From positions 186,001 through 250,000 of the forward strand of contig JAVKHY010000002.1 in assembly GCA_031459765.1 (NCBI GenBank): 64,000 nucleotides of DNA. The letters run 5' to 3'. Positions 1 through 15,592 of the stretch are shown piece by piece. The position numbers and the translations under genes were made by a program. Position 1 is the stretch's first letter, and every line of letters begins with the position of its first letter. The notes under the pieces are model-generated. The model saw only the letters and a list, made by a program, of their open reading frames with translations. It was not told the DNA's origin and did no database searches. The DNA is from Armatimonadota bacterium. Lineage in GTDB: Bacteria > Sysuimicrobiota > Sysuimicrobiia > Sysuimicrobiales > Kaftiobacteriaceae.

Positions 1-153
1 GATCCGCCTTCGGCACGCTGTGTTCATGCCCCGGCGGCTGCTCTCGTAGACAGCCCCGCCGCCCGGCCGGCTGCAGCGCCGCGGTGCGTCCCCCCTGAGG
101 TCAGCATAGCGCGACGCCGCCGGTGATCCGGGCGGCGGGTATTCCTGCAGTCT

Positions 154-447
154 TCAGCGCATCGCCGCCTGCAGCCGGGCTGCGGCGGCGGCCACGCGCT
201 GAGACGGAACCTCCGCCACGATCTGGCCGGTCCGCGCATCGCAGAACCGGACCCAGACCTGCGACGCCTCGTCCACACGCAGGTGCGCCACAATCTCCGC
301 CGCCCCGGCGGCCCCCCCCTCCGGTGCGGCGGGATCCGGCGTCGGGGGGACACTCCCCCGCTCGGCCAGGGCCCGGCGGGCCCGCTCGAAGAGATCGTCG
401 AACCCCGGGACCGAGGTCTCGCCGGACGCCGTCATAGCGGGGTCCAC
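154..447 (-). CDS. FlaG-like flagellar protein
   Basis: Protein of 97 aa. The N-terminal half is Pro/Ala/Gly-rich and probably disordered. The C-terminal half carries a beta-hairpin signature, VRFCDARTGQIVAEVPS, matching the 'D..TGEVIRQIP.E' pattern of FlaG proteins, which influence flagellar filament length or assembly. Its start codon lies inside the last 16 bases of the upstream FlgN-like gene, so the two are translationally coupled. The pairing with a FlgN-like chaperone strengthens the call. No flagellin or hook gene is in view, so the rest of the cluster would have to lie to the left of the window or elsewhere. A Cys in the hairpin is unusual. The family call is inferred from motif and context. 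Confidence 0.6.
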   Translation of the reverse strand: MDPAMTASGETSVPGFDDLFERARRALAERGSVPPTPDPAAPEGGAAGAAEIVAHLRVDEASQVWVRFCDARTGQIVAEVPSQRVAAAAARLQAAMR

Positions 448-788
448 ACGGCGACGCCGTCGTCAGGATGCCGCGCCCGAACCATGTGGCGGACGAGCAG
501 CGCCTGGTTGGCGCGCTCCACCCGGCCGAGCTGGCGGATGATCGCCGCGATACGCGGGGCGATCTCACGCACCTCGGCGGTCTCGGCCGCCTCCAGAGGG
601 GCGCGGGCGGCCTCCAGGCGGCGGAGGGTCGAGAGCCGGGCCAGTTCCGCAACCCGCAGGGCGTACAGCCCACCAAACCGCCCCTCCCGCAACAACCTGT
701 GGCGCAGGCGGGCGATGGCCAGCAGCTCACGATGCACGGCCAGTTCCTGGTCCAAGATCATCCTCAACGGTGTCCGGTCGTCGTTCAT
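432..788 (-). CDS. FlgN-like flagellar export chaperone
   Basis: An almost wholly helical 118-aa protein with heptad-like Leu/Ala/Glu/Arg patterning and no membrane segment. Length and composition fit the FlgN family, cytoplasmic chaperones that bind the hook-filament junction proteins FlgK and FlgL before export. It starts with ATG and a GGAGG immediately upstream; no clearly better start was seen. The stop overlaps the start of the FlaG-like gene. FlgN sequences are poorly conserved, so the assignment rests on helical character, size and the FlaG-like neighbour; a generic coiled-coil protein is the alternative. Confidence 0.5.
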   Translation of the reverse strand: MNDDRTPLRMILDQELAVHRELLAIARLRHRLLREGRFGGLYALRVAELARLSTLRRLEAARAPLEAAETAEVREIAPRIAAIIRQLGRVERANQALLVRHMVRARHPDDGVAVWTPL

Positions 789-964
789 CCTCCGTCCCTG
801 CCACCGGGCGTCCGCATCCCAGCACAGAGCAAAAGCGATGCCGCGGCGGTCCCTGATGGGACTGTGCTCCGCAGGCGGACCTGCCGATAGGCAGAGCGGG
901 GGGCCGCGGGCCCGGCGTCCCGCTGCGCGAACAGCGGTACGAACGGCCGCAGGGGCGCGCCGCG

Positions 965-1011
965 ACCGGCGGAGCGGTTGATTGACTTCGCCGTCGCCCC
1001 TGTGCTAGGCT
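965..1011 (+). promoter_or_regulatory. Promoter for first VTWE mini-protein
   Basis: TTGACT (982-987) and TAGGCT (1006-1011), 18 bases apart, make a credible sigma-70-type promoter about 75 bases before the start codon of the first VTWE gene. A weak copy of the palindromic box (965-982, ACCGGCG-GAGC-GGTTGAT) ends 23 bases before the same -10, the spacing seen at other promoters here, but its arms match poorly. The 299 bases between the FlgN-like gene and the mini-protein contain nothing else recognisable. Confidence 0.5.
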
Positions 1012-1087
1012 CGACGCTGCTGCGAAGACCTGGATCATCCTCTCCCCCCGGGATGAGGGTCTATCCCGAGGACAAAGGAGTGGAGAG

Positions 1088-1258
1088 ATGAAGAAGATCC
1101 TGGCCGCGATGCTCCTGGCGATGCTGGTGTTCGTCGCCACATCCGTCTCCTGGGGCCAGGAGGCCGGCGCCGGCGCGGAGTCGGTCACCTGGGAAAGCGT
1201 GACCTGGGAGGGCGTGACCTGGGAGGGCTTCGGCGACTTCGGCGTGACCTGGGAGTAA
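1088..1258 (+). CDS. Secreted VTWE-repeat mini-protein, copy 1
   Basis: A 56-aa protein: signal peptide MKKILAAMLLAMLVFVATSV followed by a short Gly/Ala/Glu stretch and four VTWE units, the last separated by GFGDFG. The start is fixed by AAAGGAG seven bases upstream. Similar Trp-containing repeats (SVTWD, SSWN types) are known at the C-termini of some secreted subtilases, but here the repeat is the whole mature protein. No modifying enzyme or protease is adjacent. A perfect-looking terminator follows, so it is monocistronic. I do not recognise a function; a secreted or surface-associated peptide is inferred from the signal sequence. Confidence 0.75.
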   Translation: MKKILAAMLLAMLVFVATSVSWGQEAGAGAESVTWESVTWEGVTWEGFGDFGVTWE

Positions 1259-1272
1259 CGACGGCAAGAGCG

Positions 1273-1315
1273 GCGGGGGGAGGCGCGCGGCGCCTTCCCC
1301 CGCTTTCATTTTTTC
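1273..1315 (+). terminator. Rho-independent terminator after VTWE copy 1
   Basis: Arms 1273-1286 and 1290-1303 form a 14-bp GC-rich stem with one mismatch and a GCG loop, followed by a T-rich run (1304-1315). It separates the two VTWE genes transcriptionally. Confidence 0.8.
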
Positions 1316-1331
1316 GCACACCTTCCCGCCG

Positions 1332-1347
1332 TGGCACGAAACTTGCT
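1332..1347 (+). promoter_or_regulatory. Sigma-54 (-24/-12) promoter
   Basis: TGGCACGAAACTTGCT matches the RpoN consensus TGGCACG-N4-TTGCA/T, with GG (1333-1334) and GC (1345-1346) exactly ten bases apart. The predicted start, about 12 bases after the GC, lies some 40 bases before the second VTWE start codon. Such promoters need an enhancer-binding protein; none is encoded in the window. Confidence 0.8.
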
Positions 1348-1398
1348 CAATTTTCCTCCTGGAGAACGGGTATGGCTGCTCACGGGAGGGAAGTCGTC

Positions 1399-1554
1399 AT
1401 GCGTAGGCTCGTCGCGGGGATCCTGTTCGTGCTGGCCCTCTTCGCCGCCACGTCCGTCTCCTGGGGCCAGGAGGCCGGCGCCGGCGCGGAGTCGGTCACC
1501 TGGGAGAGCGTGACCTGGGAGGGCTTCGGCGACTTCGGCGTGACCTGGGAATAG
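1399..1554 (+). CDS. Secreted VTWE-repeat mini-protein, copy 2
   Basis: A 51-aa paralogue of the preceding mini-protein: signal peptide MRRLVAGILFVLALFAATSV, then three VTWE units with the same GFGDFG spacer before the last. From the signal-peptide C-terminus onward the DNA is almost identical to copy 1 apart from loss of one 15-bp repeat unit, indicating a recent duplication or gene conversion, while the signal peptides differ. ATG at 1399 is preferred (GGGAGGG eight bases upstream); ATG 1372 would add nine residues. It has a sigma-54 promoter, unlike copy 1. Function unknown. Confidence 0.72.
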   Translation: MRRLVAGILFVLALFAATSVSWGQEAGAGAESVTWESVTWEGFGDFGVTWE

Positions 1555-1687: not shown

Positions 1688-3985
1688 ATGCGGCAGCTTC
1701 CCCCGCGGGCACGGGTTTTCGTTCTGGGGACGATCGTCCTCGGAGCGGGCATCACCGCGGCCATCCCCTATCTGCCGGGGGGTCTGCCGCCTCTCAACCT
1801 CCACGTCCTGATCTTCCTGGCCGCGGCGCTGGTGGCGCAGCTGGTCGGGGTGCGCTGGTTCATGCCGGGCCTGGAAGGACAGGCCTGGTCCCTGATCTCG
1901 GCGGTGCTGATTCCCTCCATCATCCTGTTCCCGCCGGCGACCGTCGTCATCATCGTCCTCATCACCTTTGCGGCCTATGCCGTCAAGCGCCGGTCCCTTC
2001 CCTGGTATCAGAACGCCTGGAACATCGCCCAGCACGAGGTGGCCGTGCTGGTCGCGGCGCTGGTCTGGGGCAACGTGCGTCCCGCCAGCAGCGGCGGATG
2101 GCTGGCGGTGCACTGGTATGCCGCGGCGTTCTTCGCCGGTGCGGCCTTCTACCTCCTGAACAACCTGCAGACCAACACCGTCCTGGCCCTGGCCACGGGC
2201 CGGCCCTTCCGGCAGGTCGGCATCTTCTCCCGCGTCAACTTCTCCCGCGAGCTGGTCCTGACATGGCTGGGGGTCGTCATCGCCGATCTGTGGCTGGTCA
2301 ACCCGTGGCGCACCGTGCTGCTGATCGTGCCGCTGATCGGTCTGTCCCAGATGCTGCGCAGCCAGGTGGAAGACGCCCAGCGCATCCGCCGCGCCCAGGT
2401 CGAAGCGGAGGGTCGCGCCCAGCAACTTTCCAGCCTCAATGAGTTGAGCCGCGCCCTGACCAGCAGCCTGGATTTCGACCAGGTCTTCGATGCGCTTTAC
2501 GCCCAGCTGGCCAAGACCGTCACTCTGGATGTGCTCTCCATCGCCCTCCTCGACCCCCACACCAACCAGCTTGAGTTCCACGTGATGAAGGCGGGCCAGG
2601 GGATGCTGCCGACCATAGTGCGGCGGGCGGAAGCGCCCGAGCTGCGCGGCCTCCTGGCGGCCCGCACCCCCCTCGTCCTGATGCCGGCGCGCCATCGGGA
2701 CACCGTGGAAGCGGTCAGCCCCCACGGGGTGTTGCTCGAGACGGCCGCGGTGACGGTCGTCCCGATGACCCTGGCCGAGCGGACGGTGGGCCTGATGCTC
2801 CTGGGCACCAGGGAGCCCCCGCTGCCGGCGCACCTCGATCTGGTGTCGACCATGGCCAGCCAGGTCGCGGTGGCCGCGGAGAAGGTCGAGCTGTTCCAGC
2901 GGGAGCGGCGCAAGACCGCCCAGCTGTCGGCCATCACGCAGGTCAGCAAGAAGATCGTCACCATTCACAACGTCGACGTCCTGTTGCAGCAGACCTCGCG
3001 GTTGATCGAGGAGTCCTTCGGCTTCGCCCGCGTGGAGGTGGCCCTGCACACCGACGGCGCGGCGCCGGCCCCCGCGGAAGGCGCCGCCGCGGACATCCCG
3101 ATCTTCTACCGGGACCAGACCATCGGGGTGATGCGCGTCTGGCTCCATCCCGGCACGGTGCTCTCCGCCGACGACCTCTCGATGCTCCAGACGCTGGCTG
3201 ACGAGATCGCCGTGGCCATCGAGAACGCGCGCCTGTACGAGCACCTGCAGATGCAGATGGGCATGCTGGAGCAGACCCAGCTGCAGCTGCTGCAGTCCGC
3301 CAAACTGGCCACCATCGGCGAGCTGGCCGCCTTCATCGCCCACGAGATCAACAACCCGCTGACCAGCGTCCTGGGCTACGCCTCCCTGGTGCTGAGTGAG
3401 ACGCCGCCGGACGATCCCAAGCGGGCCGACGTGGAGGTCATCGAGAAGGAGGCCCTGCGGGCCCGGAGCATTGTCCGGGACCTGCTGGGCTATGCCCGGC
3501 AGACGGACTCGGCGATGGAGCCCACCCAGGTGAACGAGGCCATCGAGAGCGTGCTGTCGCTGGTGCGCCAGCGGGCGGATGCGGCCAACGTGACGATCAC
3601 GGCGCGCTTCGATCCCGCGGCGCCCACCATCCTGGCCGACGTCAACCAGCTGAAGCAGGTGTTCATCAACATCCTGAACAACGCCATCGACGCCATGCCC
3701 CAGGGCGGAACGGTGGAGGTCACGACCCGTCCGGTGAGCGTGAACGGCACCGGGCCGGGGGTCGAAATTTCCTTCCAGGACAGCGGCACCGGCATCGAGC
3801 CGCAGCACCTGGAGAAGATCTTCGACGCCTTCTTCACGACCAAGGGCGCGGGGCGGGGCACGGGGCTGGGGTTGCCGATCAGCAAACGCATCGTGGAGCG
3901 GCACGGCGGAACGATCTCCGTGCGCAGCGTGCAGGGTCAGGGCAGCTGCTTTGTGATTCGCCTGCCGGCCGCGCCGGCGGCGTGA
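1688..3985 (+). CDS. Membrane sensor histidine kinase with two GAF domains
   Basis: About 765 aa. Seven or eight hydrophobic segments occupy the first ~235 residues, followed by a short coiled linker, two GAF-like domains, and a kinase core with H-box IAHEINNPLTSVLGYASLVL, N-box NAIDAMPQGG, G1 DSGTGIE, and the FFTTKG/GTGLGLPIS region. The H-box style resembles NtrB/PAS-type kinases. ATG 1688 is chosen because the earlier in-frame stretch runs through the hairpin after the VTWE gene. The receiver gene follows six bases after the stop and is its likely partner. The signal sensed by the membrane module is unknown; GAF domains suggest a small cytoplasmic ligand. Confidence 0.85.
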   Translation: MRQLPPRARVFVLGTIVLGAGITAAIPYLPGGLPPLNLHVLIFLAAALVAQLVGVRWFMPGLEGQAWSLISAVLIPSIILFPPATVVIIVLITFAAYAVKRRSLPWYQNAWNIAQHEVAVLVAALVWGNVRPASSGGWLAVHWYAAAFFAGAAFYLLNNLQTNTVLALATGRPFRQVGIFSRVNFSRELVLTWLGVVIADLWLVNPWRTVLLIVPLIGLSQMLRSQVEDAQRIRRAQVEAEGRAQQLSSLNELSRALTSSLDFDQVFDALYAQLAKTVTLDVLSIALLDPHTNQLEFHVMKAGQGMLPTIVRRAEAPELRGLLAARTPLVLMPARHRDTVEAVSPHGVLLETAAVTVVPMTLAERTVGLMLLGTREPPLPAHLDLVSTMASQVAVAAEKVELFQRERRKTAQLSAITQVSKKIVTIHNVDVLLQQTSRLIEESFGFARVEVALHTDGAAPAPAEGAAADIPIFYRDQTIGVMRVWLHPGTVLSADDLSMLQTLADEIAVAIENARLYEHLQMQMGMLEQTQLQLLQSAKLATIGELAAFIAHEINNPLTSVLGYASLVLSETPPDDPKRADVEVIEKEALRARSIVRDLLGYARQTDSAMEPTQVNEAIESVLSLVRQRADAANVTITARFDPAAPTILADVNQLKQVFINILNNAIDAMPQGGTVEVTTRPVSVNGTGPGVEISFQDSGTGIEPQHLEKIFDAFFTTKGAGRGTGLGLPISKRIVERHGGTISVRSVQGQGSCFVIRLPAAPAA

Positions 3986-3991
3986 CCGAGG

Positions 3992-4378
3992 GTGGCGACC
4001 GGGGACGGGCCGGTGGCGACCAGACGCATCCTGGTGGTGGACGACGAAGCCTCCATCCGGGACCTCTGTGCGCGGGTCCTGGGGCGGGCGGGCTTTGACG
4101 TGACCGTGGCCGGCGGGGGAGAGGAGGCCGTCGGCCGGTTGCGGGACGAAACCTTCGACGCCGTGATCACCGACATCCGGATGCCCGGCATCTCCGGCCT
4201 CGAGGTCCTCGACACAGCCAAACGTACCCAGCCGGGAATCCGGGTCGTCCTCATCACGGGCTTCGGCACGCCGCAGACCCTGGACCGCGCCCGGCAGGGC
4301 GGTGCGGACCGCATCCTGACCAAGCCCTTCAATCCCGCCGAACTGCTCACCGCGGTGCGGGACGTGCTGCCGGAGTAG
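3992..4378 (+). CDS. Single-domain response regulator receiver
   Basis: A 128-aa CheY-like receiver starting at GTG. The acidic pocket is in VVDDEASI, the phosphoacceptor Asp in VITDIRMPG, and the conserved Lys in LTKPFNP. There is no output domain, so it probably relays phosphate or acts by protein contact. It is six bases downstream of the membrane kinase gene and is its natural partner. It ends about 50 bases before the convergent nucleotidyltransferase-like gene. Confidence 0.85.
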   Translation: MATGDGPVATRRILVVDDEASIRDLCARVLGRAGFDVTVAGGGEEAVGRLRDETFDAVITDIRMPGISGLEVLDTAKRTQPGIRVVLITGFGTPQTLDRARQGGADRILTKPFNPAELLTAVRDVLPE

Positions 4379-5807: not shown

Positions 5808-6035
5808 TTACTGGAGGAGTCCGCGTTCGAACAGGCGGGCGATCATCGCGGCGCGGCTGCCGACGCCGAAGCGGGCAAAGATGCGGCGGAGATGGGTGGA
5901 GACGGTCCACATGCTGATCCCCAGGTGACGCGCGATGGCTTTTGTCGGGAGCCCCTGCGCCACCAGCAGCGCGATCTCGCGCTCCCGAGGGCTGAGCCTG
6001 TCCCGGGAAGCGGAGGGCGCGCCGGCGACCGTCAT
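5808..6035 (-). CDS. LuxR/GerE-type HTH protein
   Basis: A 75-aa protein that is essentially just a GerE-type helix-turn-helix: LSPREREIALLVAQGLPTKA, then IARHLGISMWTVSTHLRRIF. It has no receiver or ligand domain. Its ATG overlaps the TGA of the HTH-TPR gene (ATGA), so it is translated with it. Stand-alone GerE-type proteins often act as small DNA-binding outputs. The operon order (secreted peptide, TPR regulator, then this gene) makes it a candidate downstream effector, but its targets cannot be read from the sequence. Confidence 0.75.
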   Translation of the reverse strand: MTVAGAPSASRDRLSPREREIALLVAQGLPTKAIARHLGISMWTVSTHLRRIFARFGVGSRAAMIARLFERGLLQ

Positions 6036-7351
6036 GGAGTCGGGGCCGGCACCGCGGGGGTCATGAGCCGGAAGGCCCGGGCAAAGGATGAGGCCGCGGC
6101 TTCGTGCTGGCCCAGCGCCAGATAGACGAAGCCGAGATCGCGACAGGCCGCAGACAGCTCCCCGGCCATCTCCAGGCGCTCGAAGATCTCCTCCGCATCG
6201 CGCAGCCGCAGGGCCGCTTCGGCAAGCCGTCCGGCGGCCGCCAGTGCGGCCCCGTCGGCCGCCGCGGCCCGCCCCAGTTCGGCCTCGTCGTAGATGCGCC
6301 GGGCGATCGCCTCCGCCTCCGCCGCCATCGCCCGCGCCGCGTCGGCGCGCCCCCGGCGGACTTCCAATCGGGCCAGCTCCACCAGGGTCTGCGCCGTCCC
6401 TTCGTCGTCGCCGCACCGGCGCGCAAGGTGCAGGCTCTCCTGCAGATCGGCCTCCGCCTCGTCGAGCCTGCCCTGCCCGAGGCGCAGGATGCCGGCACTG
6501 CGCTTCACCACCCCCAGCAGGCGAAGGTTCTCATGGAGGCGCAGCAGGACTTCGGCCTGCTGGAGATACCTGTCCGCCTCGTCGAAGGCCTGCTGCCGTT
6601 CGGAGGCGACACCGAGATTGAAGAACAGCAGCGCCCGCTGCGCGGGATCCCCGGCACGGCTGAGGAGGGGGATCGCCTGCCGCAGCGCGTCGAGGGCCTG
6701 GGCGGGCAGACCGAGCTCCACGTAGACACGGCCGAGGTTGCTGAGCAACTTCCCCAGCAGCTCTCCGTCCTGGACCCCGGCGGCGCGCAGGCGATCGATG
6801 CCGACCTGGTAAAGGGCGCGGGCACGGGCGAACTGCCGGGCGCGGAAGGCCAGGAAGCCCTGCGCGTTGGCCGCCGCCGCGACGAGTTCGTCGTCTCCCA
6901 GTTCTTCGGCCAGGAGGCGCGCCTCCTCCAGCACCGGCGCAGCCAGGTCGAACTGGCGCAATCCGGCCAGCGCTTGGCCGCGACCGAGCGCGACCCGAAT
7001 CCGCAGCCGCGGGTCTGCGCTCTCCTCGGCGGGCGGGGCGGCCGAGGTGAAGGCCTCCAGCGCCTCGGTGAACCGGTGTTGTCGGAGCAGGGAGTCGCCG
7101 CGGCGGCAGGCGACGGCCGCACGAACCGAGACGGGCGGAGGGGCATCGAGGAGGGCGGAGAGAGGCAGGCGGAGGCGCCCGGCAAGGAGTTGCAGGGTGG
7201 CCAGGGACGGGCGCACCCTGTCGTGCTCGATCATGCTGACGTAGCTGGCCGACAGCGACGGTCGGCCGAGATCGCGCTGCGTCAGTCCGAGCGCCTTCCG
7301 CGCCTGTCTGATCCGCGCCCCGAGCGTCGTGCCGGGCCCTCCTCCGGCCAC
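6032..7351 (-). CDS. HTH-TPR transcriptional regulator (RRNPP-like architecture)
   Basis: A 439-aa protein. Residues ~8-65 form a Cro/C1-type HTH (RIRQARKALGLTQRDL, then ASYVSMIEHDRVRPSLATLQ). The remaining ~370 residues are a solenoid of about eight TPR-like helical hairpins rich in Ala/Leu/Arg. This is the architecture of Rgg, PlcR and NprR regulators, which bind secreted peptides, and also of many uncharacterised TPR regulators. The start is GTG at 7351, sixteen bases after the stop of a gene for a 38-aa peptide with a signal sequence. Family membership by architecture is clear; peptide sensing is inference from that neighbour. Confidence 0.8.
   Translation of the reverse strand: MAGGGPGTTLGARIRQARKALGLTQRDLGRPSLSASYVSMIEHDRVRPSLATLQLLAGRLRLPLSALLDAPPPVSVRAAVACRRGDSLLRQHRFTEALEAFTSAAPPAEESADPRLRIRVALGRGQALAGLRQFDLAAPVLEEARLLAEELGDDELVAAAANAQGFLAFRARQFARARALYQVGIDRLRAAGVQDGELLGKLLSNLGRVYVELGLPAQALDALRQAIPLLSRAGDPAQRALLFFNLGVASERQQAFDEADRYLQQAEVLLRLHENLRLLGVVKRSAGILRLGQGRLDEAEADLQESLHLARRCGDDEGTAQTLVELARLEVRRGRADAARAMAAEAEAIARRIYDEAELGRAAAADGAALAAAGRLAEAALRLRDAEEIFERLEMAGELSAACRDLGFVYLALGQHEAAASSFARAFRLMTPAVPAPTP

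Positions 7352-13826: not shown

Positions 13827-13830
<4 letters not shown>
12739..13830 (-). CDS. Sensor histidine kinase with Met-rich periplasmic loop
   Basis: A 363-aa EnvZ/CusS-type kinase: helix 1, a short periplasmic loop of ~50 residues, helix 2, HAMP, H-box DIAHELGTPLAVLQANME, N-box LHNLLDNAIRYTPAGG, G1 DTGPGIPEEELPRIFDRF and GGAGLGLAI. The periplasmic loop contains HARAMPGMSAMMRSMM, six Met and a His in 16 residues, which strongly suggests direct Cu(I)/Ag(I) sensing. The start overlaps the end of the response-regulator gene. It is the kinase of the OmpR-type pair that probably controls this operon. Confidence 0.9.
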
Positions 13831-14518
<688 letters not shown>

Positions 14519-14522
<4 letters not shown>

Positions 14523-14866: not shown

Positions 14867-15592
14867 TCAGAAGTGCTTCTCCCGCACAAAGGCGCCGTGC
14901 CAGGCGTGATACCAGACCTGCCCGGTGTAGGCGTTGACGCTGAGCATCCCCACCGGCGTCCCGCCCCGTTCGACGTCGAAGGTGAAGTAGCCGTAGAACG
15001 CCGTGCCCTCGTCGGGCGACGTCCCGGGGAAGGTCTGGGCCAGATACCGGGCGGCGATCTGGCGGGCGCGCTCGATGGCGAGGGGGGCGGTCTGAGGAGG
15101 GGGGGCCTGGAAGGCCGGTCCGCGGCCGTAGCCCGGACCCCAACCGCCCATCATCCCGCCGCCCATCATCCCCGGGCCCATACCCCAGCCAGCCGGCCCC
15201 GCCATGTGGCCGTACTTGGTGTTCCACATCATGTTGGGTCCCGGCTCGGGATGCACAAACCCATTGCGCTCCACAATCAGCTCGAAGGCGCCCAATCCGG
15301 TGCTCTTCTCCTTCACCAGAACGTAGAAGTGGTTGCTGAACTCCATGACCTCCTCGACAACGAGGTCGGCGTTGCCGTAGGCGGCCAGGGCGTCGCGGGC
15401 CCGGGCCGCGGCGTCGTCCAGAGAGGCCACGGCAGCGCCTCCCGCGCCCCACCCGGGGCCCATCATCCCCCAGCCGCCCCATCCACCGCGTCCTCCCGGT
15501 CCGGGTTGCGCGAGGCCCGGCAGCGCCAGCGCCGCCGCCACCAGGATCACGCCGATGCCCGCATAGAGATAACGCCTGCGCATCTCGCTCAT
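14867..15592 (-). CDS. Secreted Met/Gly-rich PepSY-like protein
   Basis: A 241-aa exported protein: signal peptide (AGIGVILVAAALALPGLAQP), a WGMMGPGW segment, a PepSY-like alpha/beta domain (residues ~60-120), a second Met cluster (MGPGMMGGGMMGGWGPGYG) and a further PepSY-like segment ending in TGQVWYHAWHG. The Met clusters resemble copper-buffering proteins. It is the first gene of the operon, starting at ATG 15592 with GAGGTGAGGAG upstream. Periplasmic copper storage or delivery is the best inference. Confidence 0.72.
   Translation of the reverse strand: MSEMRRRYLYAGIGVILVAAALALPGLAQPGPGGRGGWGGWGMMGPGWGAGGAAVASLDDAAARARDALAAYGNADLVVEEVMEFSNHFYVLVKEKSTGLGAFELIVERNGFVHPEPGPNMMWNTKYGHMAGPAGWGMGPGMMGGGMMGGWGPGYGRGPAFQAPPPQTAPLAIERARQIAARYLAQTFPGTSPDEGTAFYGYFTFDVERGGTPVGMLSVNAYTGQVWYHAWHGAFVREKHF

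Follow-up and report, generated by a model that had tools for sequence, protein, structure and literature searches.

Two adjacent genes near the start of a 64,000-nucleotide stretch from an Armatimonadota bacterium (the whole of which we call the window) encode mini-proteins in which a hydrophobic leader is followed by tandem VTWE units, and we propose, with a probability of roughly 0.4, that they are secreted signalling pro-peptides that would be cut by a subtilase, sensed by the neighbouring membrane histidine kinase and made to feed back on sigma-54-dependent transcription. The proposal starts from what is observed in these genomes, namely the anatomy of the genes, the selection acting on them, their synteny, and the sigma-54 boxes together with their sharing among these genes. 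Mini-gene a (ORF1, 1088..1258, plus strand) encodes 56 residues, MKKILAAMLLAMLVFVATSVSWGQEAGAGAESVTWESVTWEGVTWEGFGDFGVTWE, with a leader, the motif SVSWG and four VTWE units, and mini-gene b (ORF2, 1399..1554, plus strand) encodes 51 residues, MRRLVAGILFVLALFAATSVSWGQEAGAGAESVTWESVTWEGFGDFGVTWE, with a diverged leader, SVSWG and three VTWE units; the ATG at 1399 was taken as the start of ORF2, being conserved among relatives and having GGGAGGG upstream, and the mechanical ORF begins at 1372. Both frames open with a short basic N-terminus and a hydrophobic stretch that runs into SVSWG and the repeats, just as the initial annotation had described them, and its remark that the mature DNA is nearly identical and the leaders diverged is borne out by 98% identity past SVSWG, with a single 15-nt gap, vs 69% over the leaders. 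The repeat unit measures 15 bp, in 2.8 copies according to TRF.

SVSWG is itself an extra Trp unit that closes the leader in all 17 family genes collected below, and the residues invariant throughout the 17 are S19-V-S-W-G23, W45, and W55 in ORF1 numbering. A Trp stands at the C-terminus or adjoins it in every one of them, and every product, of 45–56 residues, has a K/R start and a hydrophobic stretch, the leader having been judged by eye (17/17). About 20–33 residues remain past SVSWG, and these are strongly acidic in the window copies. The mini-proteins had no match in Pfam, NCBIfam, or a PDB sequence search, no relatives were found in the plasmids and viral contigs searched, and a literature search with the repeat letters returned no paper. 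An intrinsic terminator follows gene a (1272..1314, plus strand), and 3' of ORF2 there is a GC-rich inverted repeat without a T run (1570–1610) and then TATGGTATACA, possibly the -10 region of the kinase itself; the similar ATGGTATACA is present in G001 and G002.

The search covered 61 genomes, and the family was found in 8 of the 10 genomes belonging to the same taxonomic family, with 1–3 copies in each, and with no convincing member outside it. Three genes each were found in G001 and G002, two each in G000 (the window genome), G003, G005, G006, and G008, and one in G009; a whole-genome search of the window genome, which is placed in one genus with G002, returned ORF1 and ORF2 only. In all eight genomes the mini-genes occupy one syntenic site. 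The pN/pS ratio pooled over 13 pairs, which share genes and ancestry and are not independent counts, was 0.19 for SVSWG plus the mature part vs 0.60 for the leaders, and every mature difference between the a and b copies of G000, and likewise of G001, is synonymous. As judged from these substitutions, the mature part is under purifying selection, and by the same comparative reasoning the mini-genes are real genes; the possibility that relatives lack the frames or show no coding constraint does not agree with this ratio or with the distribution of the family.

Within a genome, the mature parts are 83–98% identical and the leaders 64–87%, and the leaders of the same slot are alike between close genomes (e.g., G001a and G002a share 87% in the leader and 75% in the mature part). 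The single gene of G009 is 98% identical to G008a in its upstream part and 98% identical to G008b downstream, which identifies it by sequence as two copies recombined or fused through the repeat. These identities, the synonymous differences, and the G009 fusion uphold the initial suggestion that the repeat part is homogenised by conversion or duplication. The unit itself differs by genus, being VTWE in g1 and ATWE in g2, g4, and g5, and such homogenised mature parts on leaders that keep their orthology are expected if every copy must address one receptor. In neither genome of genus g3 (G004 and G007) did we find minis, kinase, or NtrC. The G007 contig that carries rpoN stops at that gene; this cut, and the lack of NtrC in g3 as well, take weight from the perfect co-occurrence of minis and kinase. 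Assembly gaps could explain the g3 absence, which is weak evidence.

The two window genes also differ in their promoters, all of which, sigma-70-like and sigma-54 alike, are predicted by sequence match. Gene a has a sigma-70-like promoter at 982..1011 (plus strand), TTGACT-18-TAGGCT, weak in this copy (shuffle P 0.12), and the other seven first copies have TTGACA-17-TA(C/G)nnT at the corresponding place; singly these matches are weak (shuffle P 0 to 0.12), and their position recurs across genomes. Gene b is preceded by a sigma-54 -24/-12 box at 1332..1348 (plus strand), TGGCACGAAACTTGCTC, matching at 12/12 positions, and such a box lies 60–67 nt before the ATG in all nine later copies (10–12 of 12 positions) and in none of the eight first copies. 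The exact 15-base sigma-54 pattern has two sites in the window genome, one before ORF2 and the other before the HD-GYP–rpoN operon, and a looser pattern occurs nine times vs once for the reversed control. The 5'UTR of gene a (1025..1065, plus strand) reads AAGACC ... GGTCTATC with a predicted hairpin, and it has a counterpart in the seven other first copies, with the GGTCTATC core nearly invariant and, by eye, an inner stem whose sequence varies between genera with pairing kept. It is possibly an RNA regulatory element, and no Rfam family matched near it.

The locus surrounding the minis is a sigma-54 cluster whose order in the eight genomes is GGDEF, RpoN, receiver-GAF-HD-GYP, NtrC-type activator, FlaG-like, and FlgN-like genes, and then a divergent part with the mini-genes, the kinase, a stand-alone receiver, and a nucleotidyltransferase, although in some genomes parts are lost to contig ends or too diverged for scoring. 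The window holds the 5' end of the NtrC-type sigma-54 activator (1..16, minus strand; full gene G000:C2:184637-186016), next to which, outside the window, lie the RR-GAF-HD-GYP, rpoN (C2:181715-183082), and GGDEF genes. It further holds a conserved small FlaG-like protein (154..447, minus strand), assigned by eye and with no Pfam or NCBIfam match, a conserved FlgN-like helical protein divergent from the mini-genes (432..788, minus strand; Pfam FlgN E=2e-4, below the cut-off) with its own sigma-54-like box (827..843, minus strand; CGGCATCGCTTTTGCTC) that has counterparts in relatives, and the response-regulator receiver domain (3992..4378, plus strand). In other families NtrC and rpoN adjoin the nucleotidyltransferase without the insert, and in G012, where FlhA is present, they lie near genes reading by eye as FliD and FliS.

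The FlgN/FlaG-like neighbours raised the possibility of a functional flagellum, which was rejected, there being no flagellin in the window genome and no FlhA in any of the 10 family genomes. The window genome probably belongs to the candidate phylum CSP1-3/Sysuimicrobiota, for which flagella have been reported in only two families (PMC11604079). The cluster has the appearance of a sigma-54 control region once used for flagella, and the FlgN/FlaG-like genes, kept under sigma-54 boxes without FlhA, are probably reused. We observed these genes (window 154–788; L110) as apparent remnants of the flagellar cluster.

The proposed receptor is the sensor histidine kinase at 1688..3985 (plus strand), with a MASE9-like membrane domain, two GAF domains, HisKA, and HATPase. 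MASE9 is a membrane sensor domain, and we know of no peptide binding by MASE9 domains. The N-terminal membrane part of the kinase, with at least five hydrophobic segments, scores highly only in the eight mini-bearing genomes and aligns with the membrane part of two HD-GYP proteins called as MASE9 by Pfam (hhalign E 6e-8 and 2e-5). It resembles the MASE9-HD-GYP proteins (PF20972) in this alignment and differs from them in that it is joined to GAF-GAF-histidine kinase and gave 0 matches in Pfam.

Beyond the locus, sigma-54 boxes shared by homologues in at least two genomes precede mini b/c, the FlgN-like gene, HD-GYP–rpoN, GGDEF, and a secreted subtilase, and further ones (also in at least two genomes) precede a roadblock-domain protein, a 52-residue membrane protein with a neighbour of ~137 residues, and a PilB/GspE-type ATPase. 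The subtilase box is present in 7 of the 8 mini-bearing genomes (G000, G002, G003, G005, G006, G008, and G009) and absent from the G011 subtilase; it is also found in G007, where minis were not detected, and this makes the sigma-54 control of the subtilase independent of the minis. Subtilase and mini-genes are unlinked in the genome. In genus g5 (G006, G009, and G008; L183, L186, and L187, respectively), the linker that joins prodomain to catalytic domain has the sequence TE(N/T)ATWEGGAL(E/D)AL and is close to STEATWESATWETLDAV of the local minis, ATWE being the mini unit of that genus; this ATWE is confined to the one genus, with no Trp unit in the subtilases of G000, G003, and G005 and with the G002 linker partly masked. 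In the pair of the 52-residue protein, with its single membrane segment, and the ~137-residue protein (L146, G000:C4:238916-239729; L151; L152; L160), it is the larger protein that was seen in four genomes, and it has no Pfam family.

In the signalling mechanism that we propose, gene a would be exported at a basal level from its sigma-70-like promoter, and gene b would supply the same mature sequence from its sigma-54 promoter once NtrC and sigma-54 switch on. After Sec export, the VTWE part would be cleaved into a short Trp peptide in several copies, the sigma-54-regulated secreted subtilase being a plausible protease for this step; the peptide would be sensed by the neighbouring MASE9-like kinase, and the latter would drive NtrC, directly or through the receiver-only regulator, so that NtrC would act on gene b, HD-GYP/rpoN, the subtilase, and the pilus-type genes. 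Export, cleavage, sensing, and kinase–NtrC pairing are inferred; in favour of the mechanism are the syntenic site in eight genomes, in which alone the kinase membrane part scores highly, the boxes on later copies exclusively, the C-terminal Trp of all 17 genes, the boxed subtilase with its (N/T)ATWEGG linker in g5, and a unit that differs between genera. Against it, MASE9-type domains occur on HD-GYP proteins as well, and the adjacency of minis and kinase may be a shared operon neighbourhood and no more; the presence of the pilus-type ATPase and roadblock protein in the regulon would also suit a role in a surface structure, G007 has a boxed subtilase without minis, and the linker ATWE is limited to one genus. 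More tentatively still, the whole would be an undescribed communication by Trp peptides in an uncultured bacterial lineage, with one basal and one sigma-54-induced gene, maturation by the subtilase, and a MASE9-type kinase controlling an ex-flagellar sigma-54 cluster put to other surface functions.

The closest precedents, by analogy, would be the Phr tandem pheromones for the precursor and PilSR-PilA for the regulation. The Phr pro-peptides of phages phi3T and phi105 carry 1–4 tandem pheromones matured by extracellular proteases, among them subtilisin, Epr, Vpr, and WprA (PMC11343458). The minis share with RRNPPA systems an exported precursor of ~50 residues, several copies of a short peptide, and a conserved C-terminal unit, whereas they adjoin a membrane histidine kinase and a FlgN-like gene instead of a TPR receptor, one copy has a sigma-54 promoter, the sequences are unrelated, and the host is presumably not of the Bacillota; the counterpart of the maturing proteases would be only the predicted sigma-54-boxed subtilase. 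We did not class the minis as RRNPPA because a TPR receptor is not adjacent. In PilS-PilR-PilA autoregulation PilS binds PilA directly (PMC6058289), and the likeness here lies in the NtrC-type regulator, the sigma-54 promoter (by sequence match), the multi-TM kinase, and the small exported product. The difference is that the product is no pilin, for which reason the minis were not classed as PilA, that PilA is no repeat peptide, and that our kinase carries MASE9-like and GAF domains.

This same parallel with PilSR-PilA (NtrC/sigma-54 with a multi-TM kinase) also serves the main competing explanation, possible and somewhat doubtful, that the minis are a structural or adhesive surface component, exported and then left whole or trimmed, coating or cross-linking a pilus or the envelope and made with a sigma-54 pilus/secretion regulon, the kinase perhaps gauging the amount of mini-protein as PilS does that of PilA. 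Sigma-54 boxes before the PilB/GspE-type ATPase and the roadblock protein in several genomes agree with it, identical mature sequences are equally demanded by co-assembly, and a bulk product could well be made from a basal and an induced copy. However, the mature part is short, acidic, and modelled with low confidence, the prepilin motif is absent with no Pfam or relevant NCBIfam match either, and repeat number and length are variable. The initial annotation had pictured an amphipathic beta strand as a unit of assembly or adhesion, a picture that is not supported, because the five-residue period (W35/W40/W45 in ORF1 and W35/W40 in ORF2) puts successive Trp residues on opposite faces of a strand, leaving no one-sided strand; AlphaFold2 predicted no strand for five sequences (mean pLDDT 57, with the mature part at low confidence). 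Given the low confidence of these models, an adhesion or assembly unit is possible, but the genetic context favours signalling at least as strongly.

The subtilase could instead be the partner itself, with the Trp unit as a recognition element and the minis as trans-acting substrates, inhibitors, or chaperones, which we consider unlikely. A gene-fusion argument speaks for it, since three Chloroflexi MAGs (L032, L033, and L034) have subtilases ending in VTWE arrays, and so do the box on the subtilase in most mini-bearing genomes and the (N/T)ATWEGG of the g5 pro-region linker. The initial annotation had mentioned secreted subtilases with Trp-repeat tails, and these three are such; in common with the minis, they are secreted and carry an array of (S/G)VTWE pentapeptides, and they differ in having it fused to peptidase S8, a domain not present on the stand-alone mini-protein chains, the tailed enzymes belonging to other genomes. 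But the Chloroflexi enzymes are not close orthologues, other tails use SIAWD, a Trp unit is lacking from the subtilases of G000, G003, and G005, the subtilase is unlinked to the minis, and G007 has the boxed enzyme with minis not detected. A VTWE-tailed subtilase was not found in the window genome, where only the two mini-genes match. Two of the three Chloroflexi genomes have an additional subtilase-type gene with an AWD array, and long SIAWD pentapeptide tails were seen on Chloroflexi subtilase-type genes in L174 (28–1284) and L176 (6314–8530); they represent a sister type to the VTWE tails. In L034, the VTWE subtilase stands in a row with a MASE9-HD-GYP gene and a 59-residue protein in which a hydrophobic leader is combined with two SWE motifs, which hints at a link between repeat, protease, and MASE9 at one locus. 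We dropped it as independent proof of a MASE9 receptor, the locus being single and MASE9-HD-GYP occurring elsewhere too (G011).

It is quite improbable that the peptide is re-imported in an RRNPP-type loop to bind, not the kinase, but the HTH_3 and TPR regulator at 6032..7351 (minus strand). Length, leader, conserved C-terminal unit, and 1–4 repeats fit RRNPPA pro-peptides (PMC11343458), and in five relatives an HTH+TPR gene is kept close to the locus, but this alternative receptor candidate lies ~4.5 kb and three genes away, is missing from the G003 stretch, where minis are present, and has generic TPR/HTH proteins and no RRNPP receptor as its nearest solved structures. Least of all do we expect a secreted antimicrobial or toxin-like peptide, as small, duplicated genes with predicted export might suggest, given acidic instead of cationic products, invariant co-occurrence with a signalling cluster, and, alongside the minis, no gene observed for immunity, maturation, or a transporter of their own.

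If the minis are signals, they would belong to a peptide loop from beyond the Bacillota that uses sigma-54 and a MASE9-type kinase and is encoded mostly in one small conserved locus; its candidate ligand, of five residues, is open to synthesis and direct assay and would be, to our knowledge, the first candidate peptide ligand for MASE9. Should they be structural, they are no less a secreted repeat family that is conserved, evolves in concert, and has a clear regulon; for VTWE/ATWE peptides, we found no database family or paper. Elsewhere in the window, 14867–15592 (minus strand) encodes a predicted secreted Gly/Met/Trp-rich protein (GWGMMGPGW..., GMMGGGMMGGWGPG), adjoined by the gene of an OmpR-type response regulator (13827–14522, minus strand).
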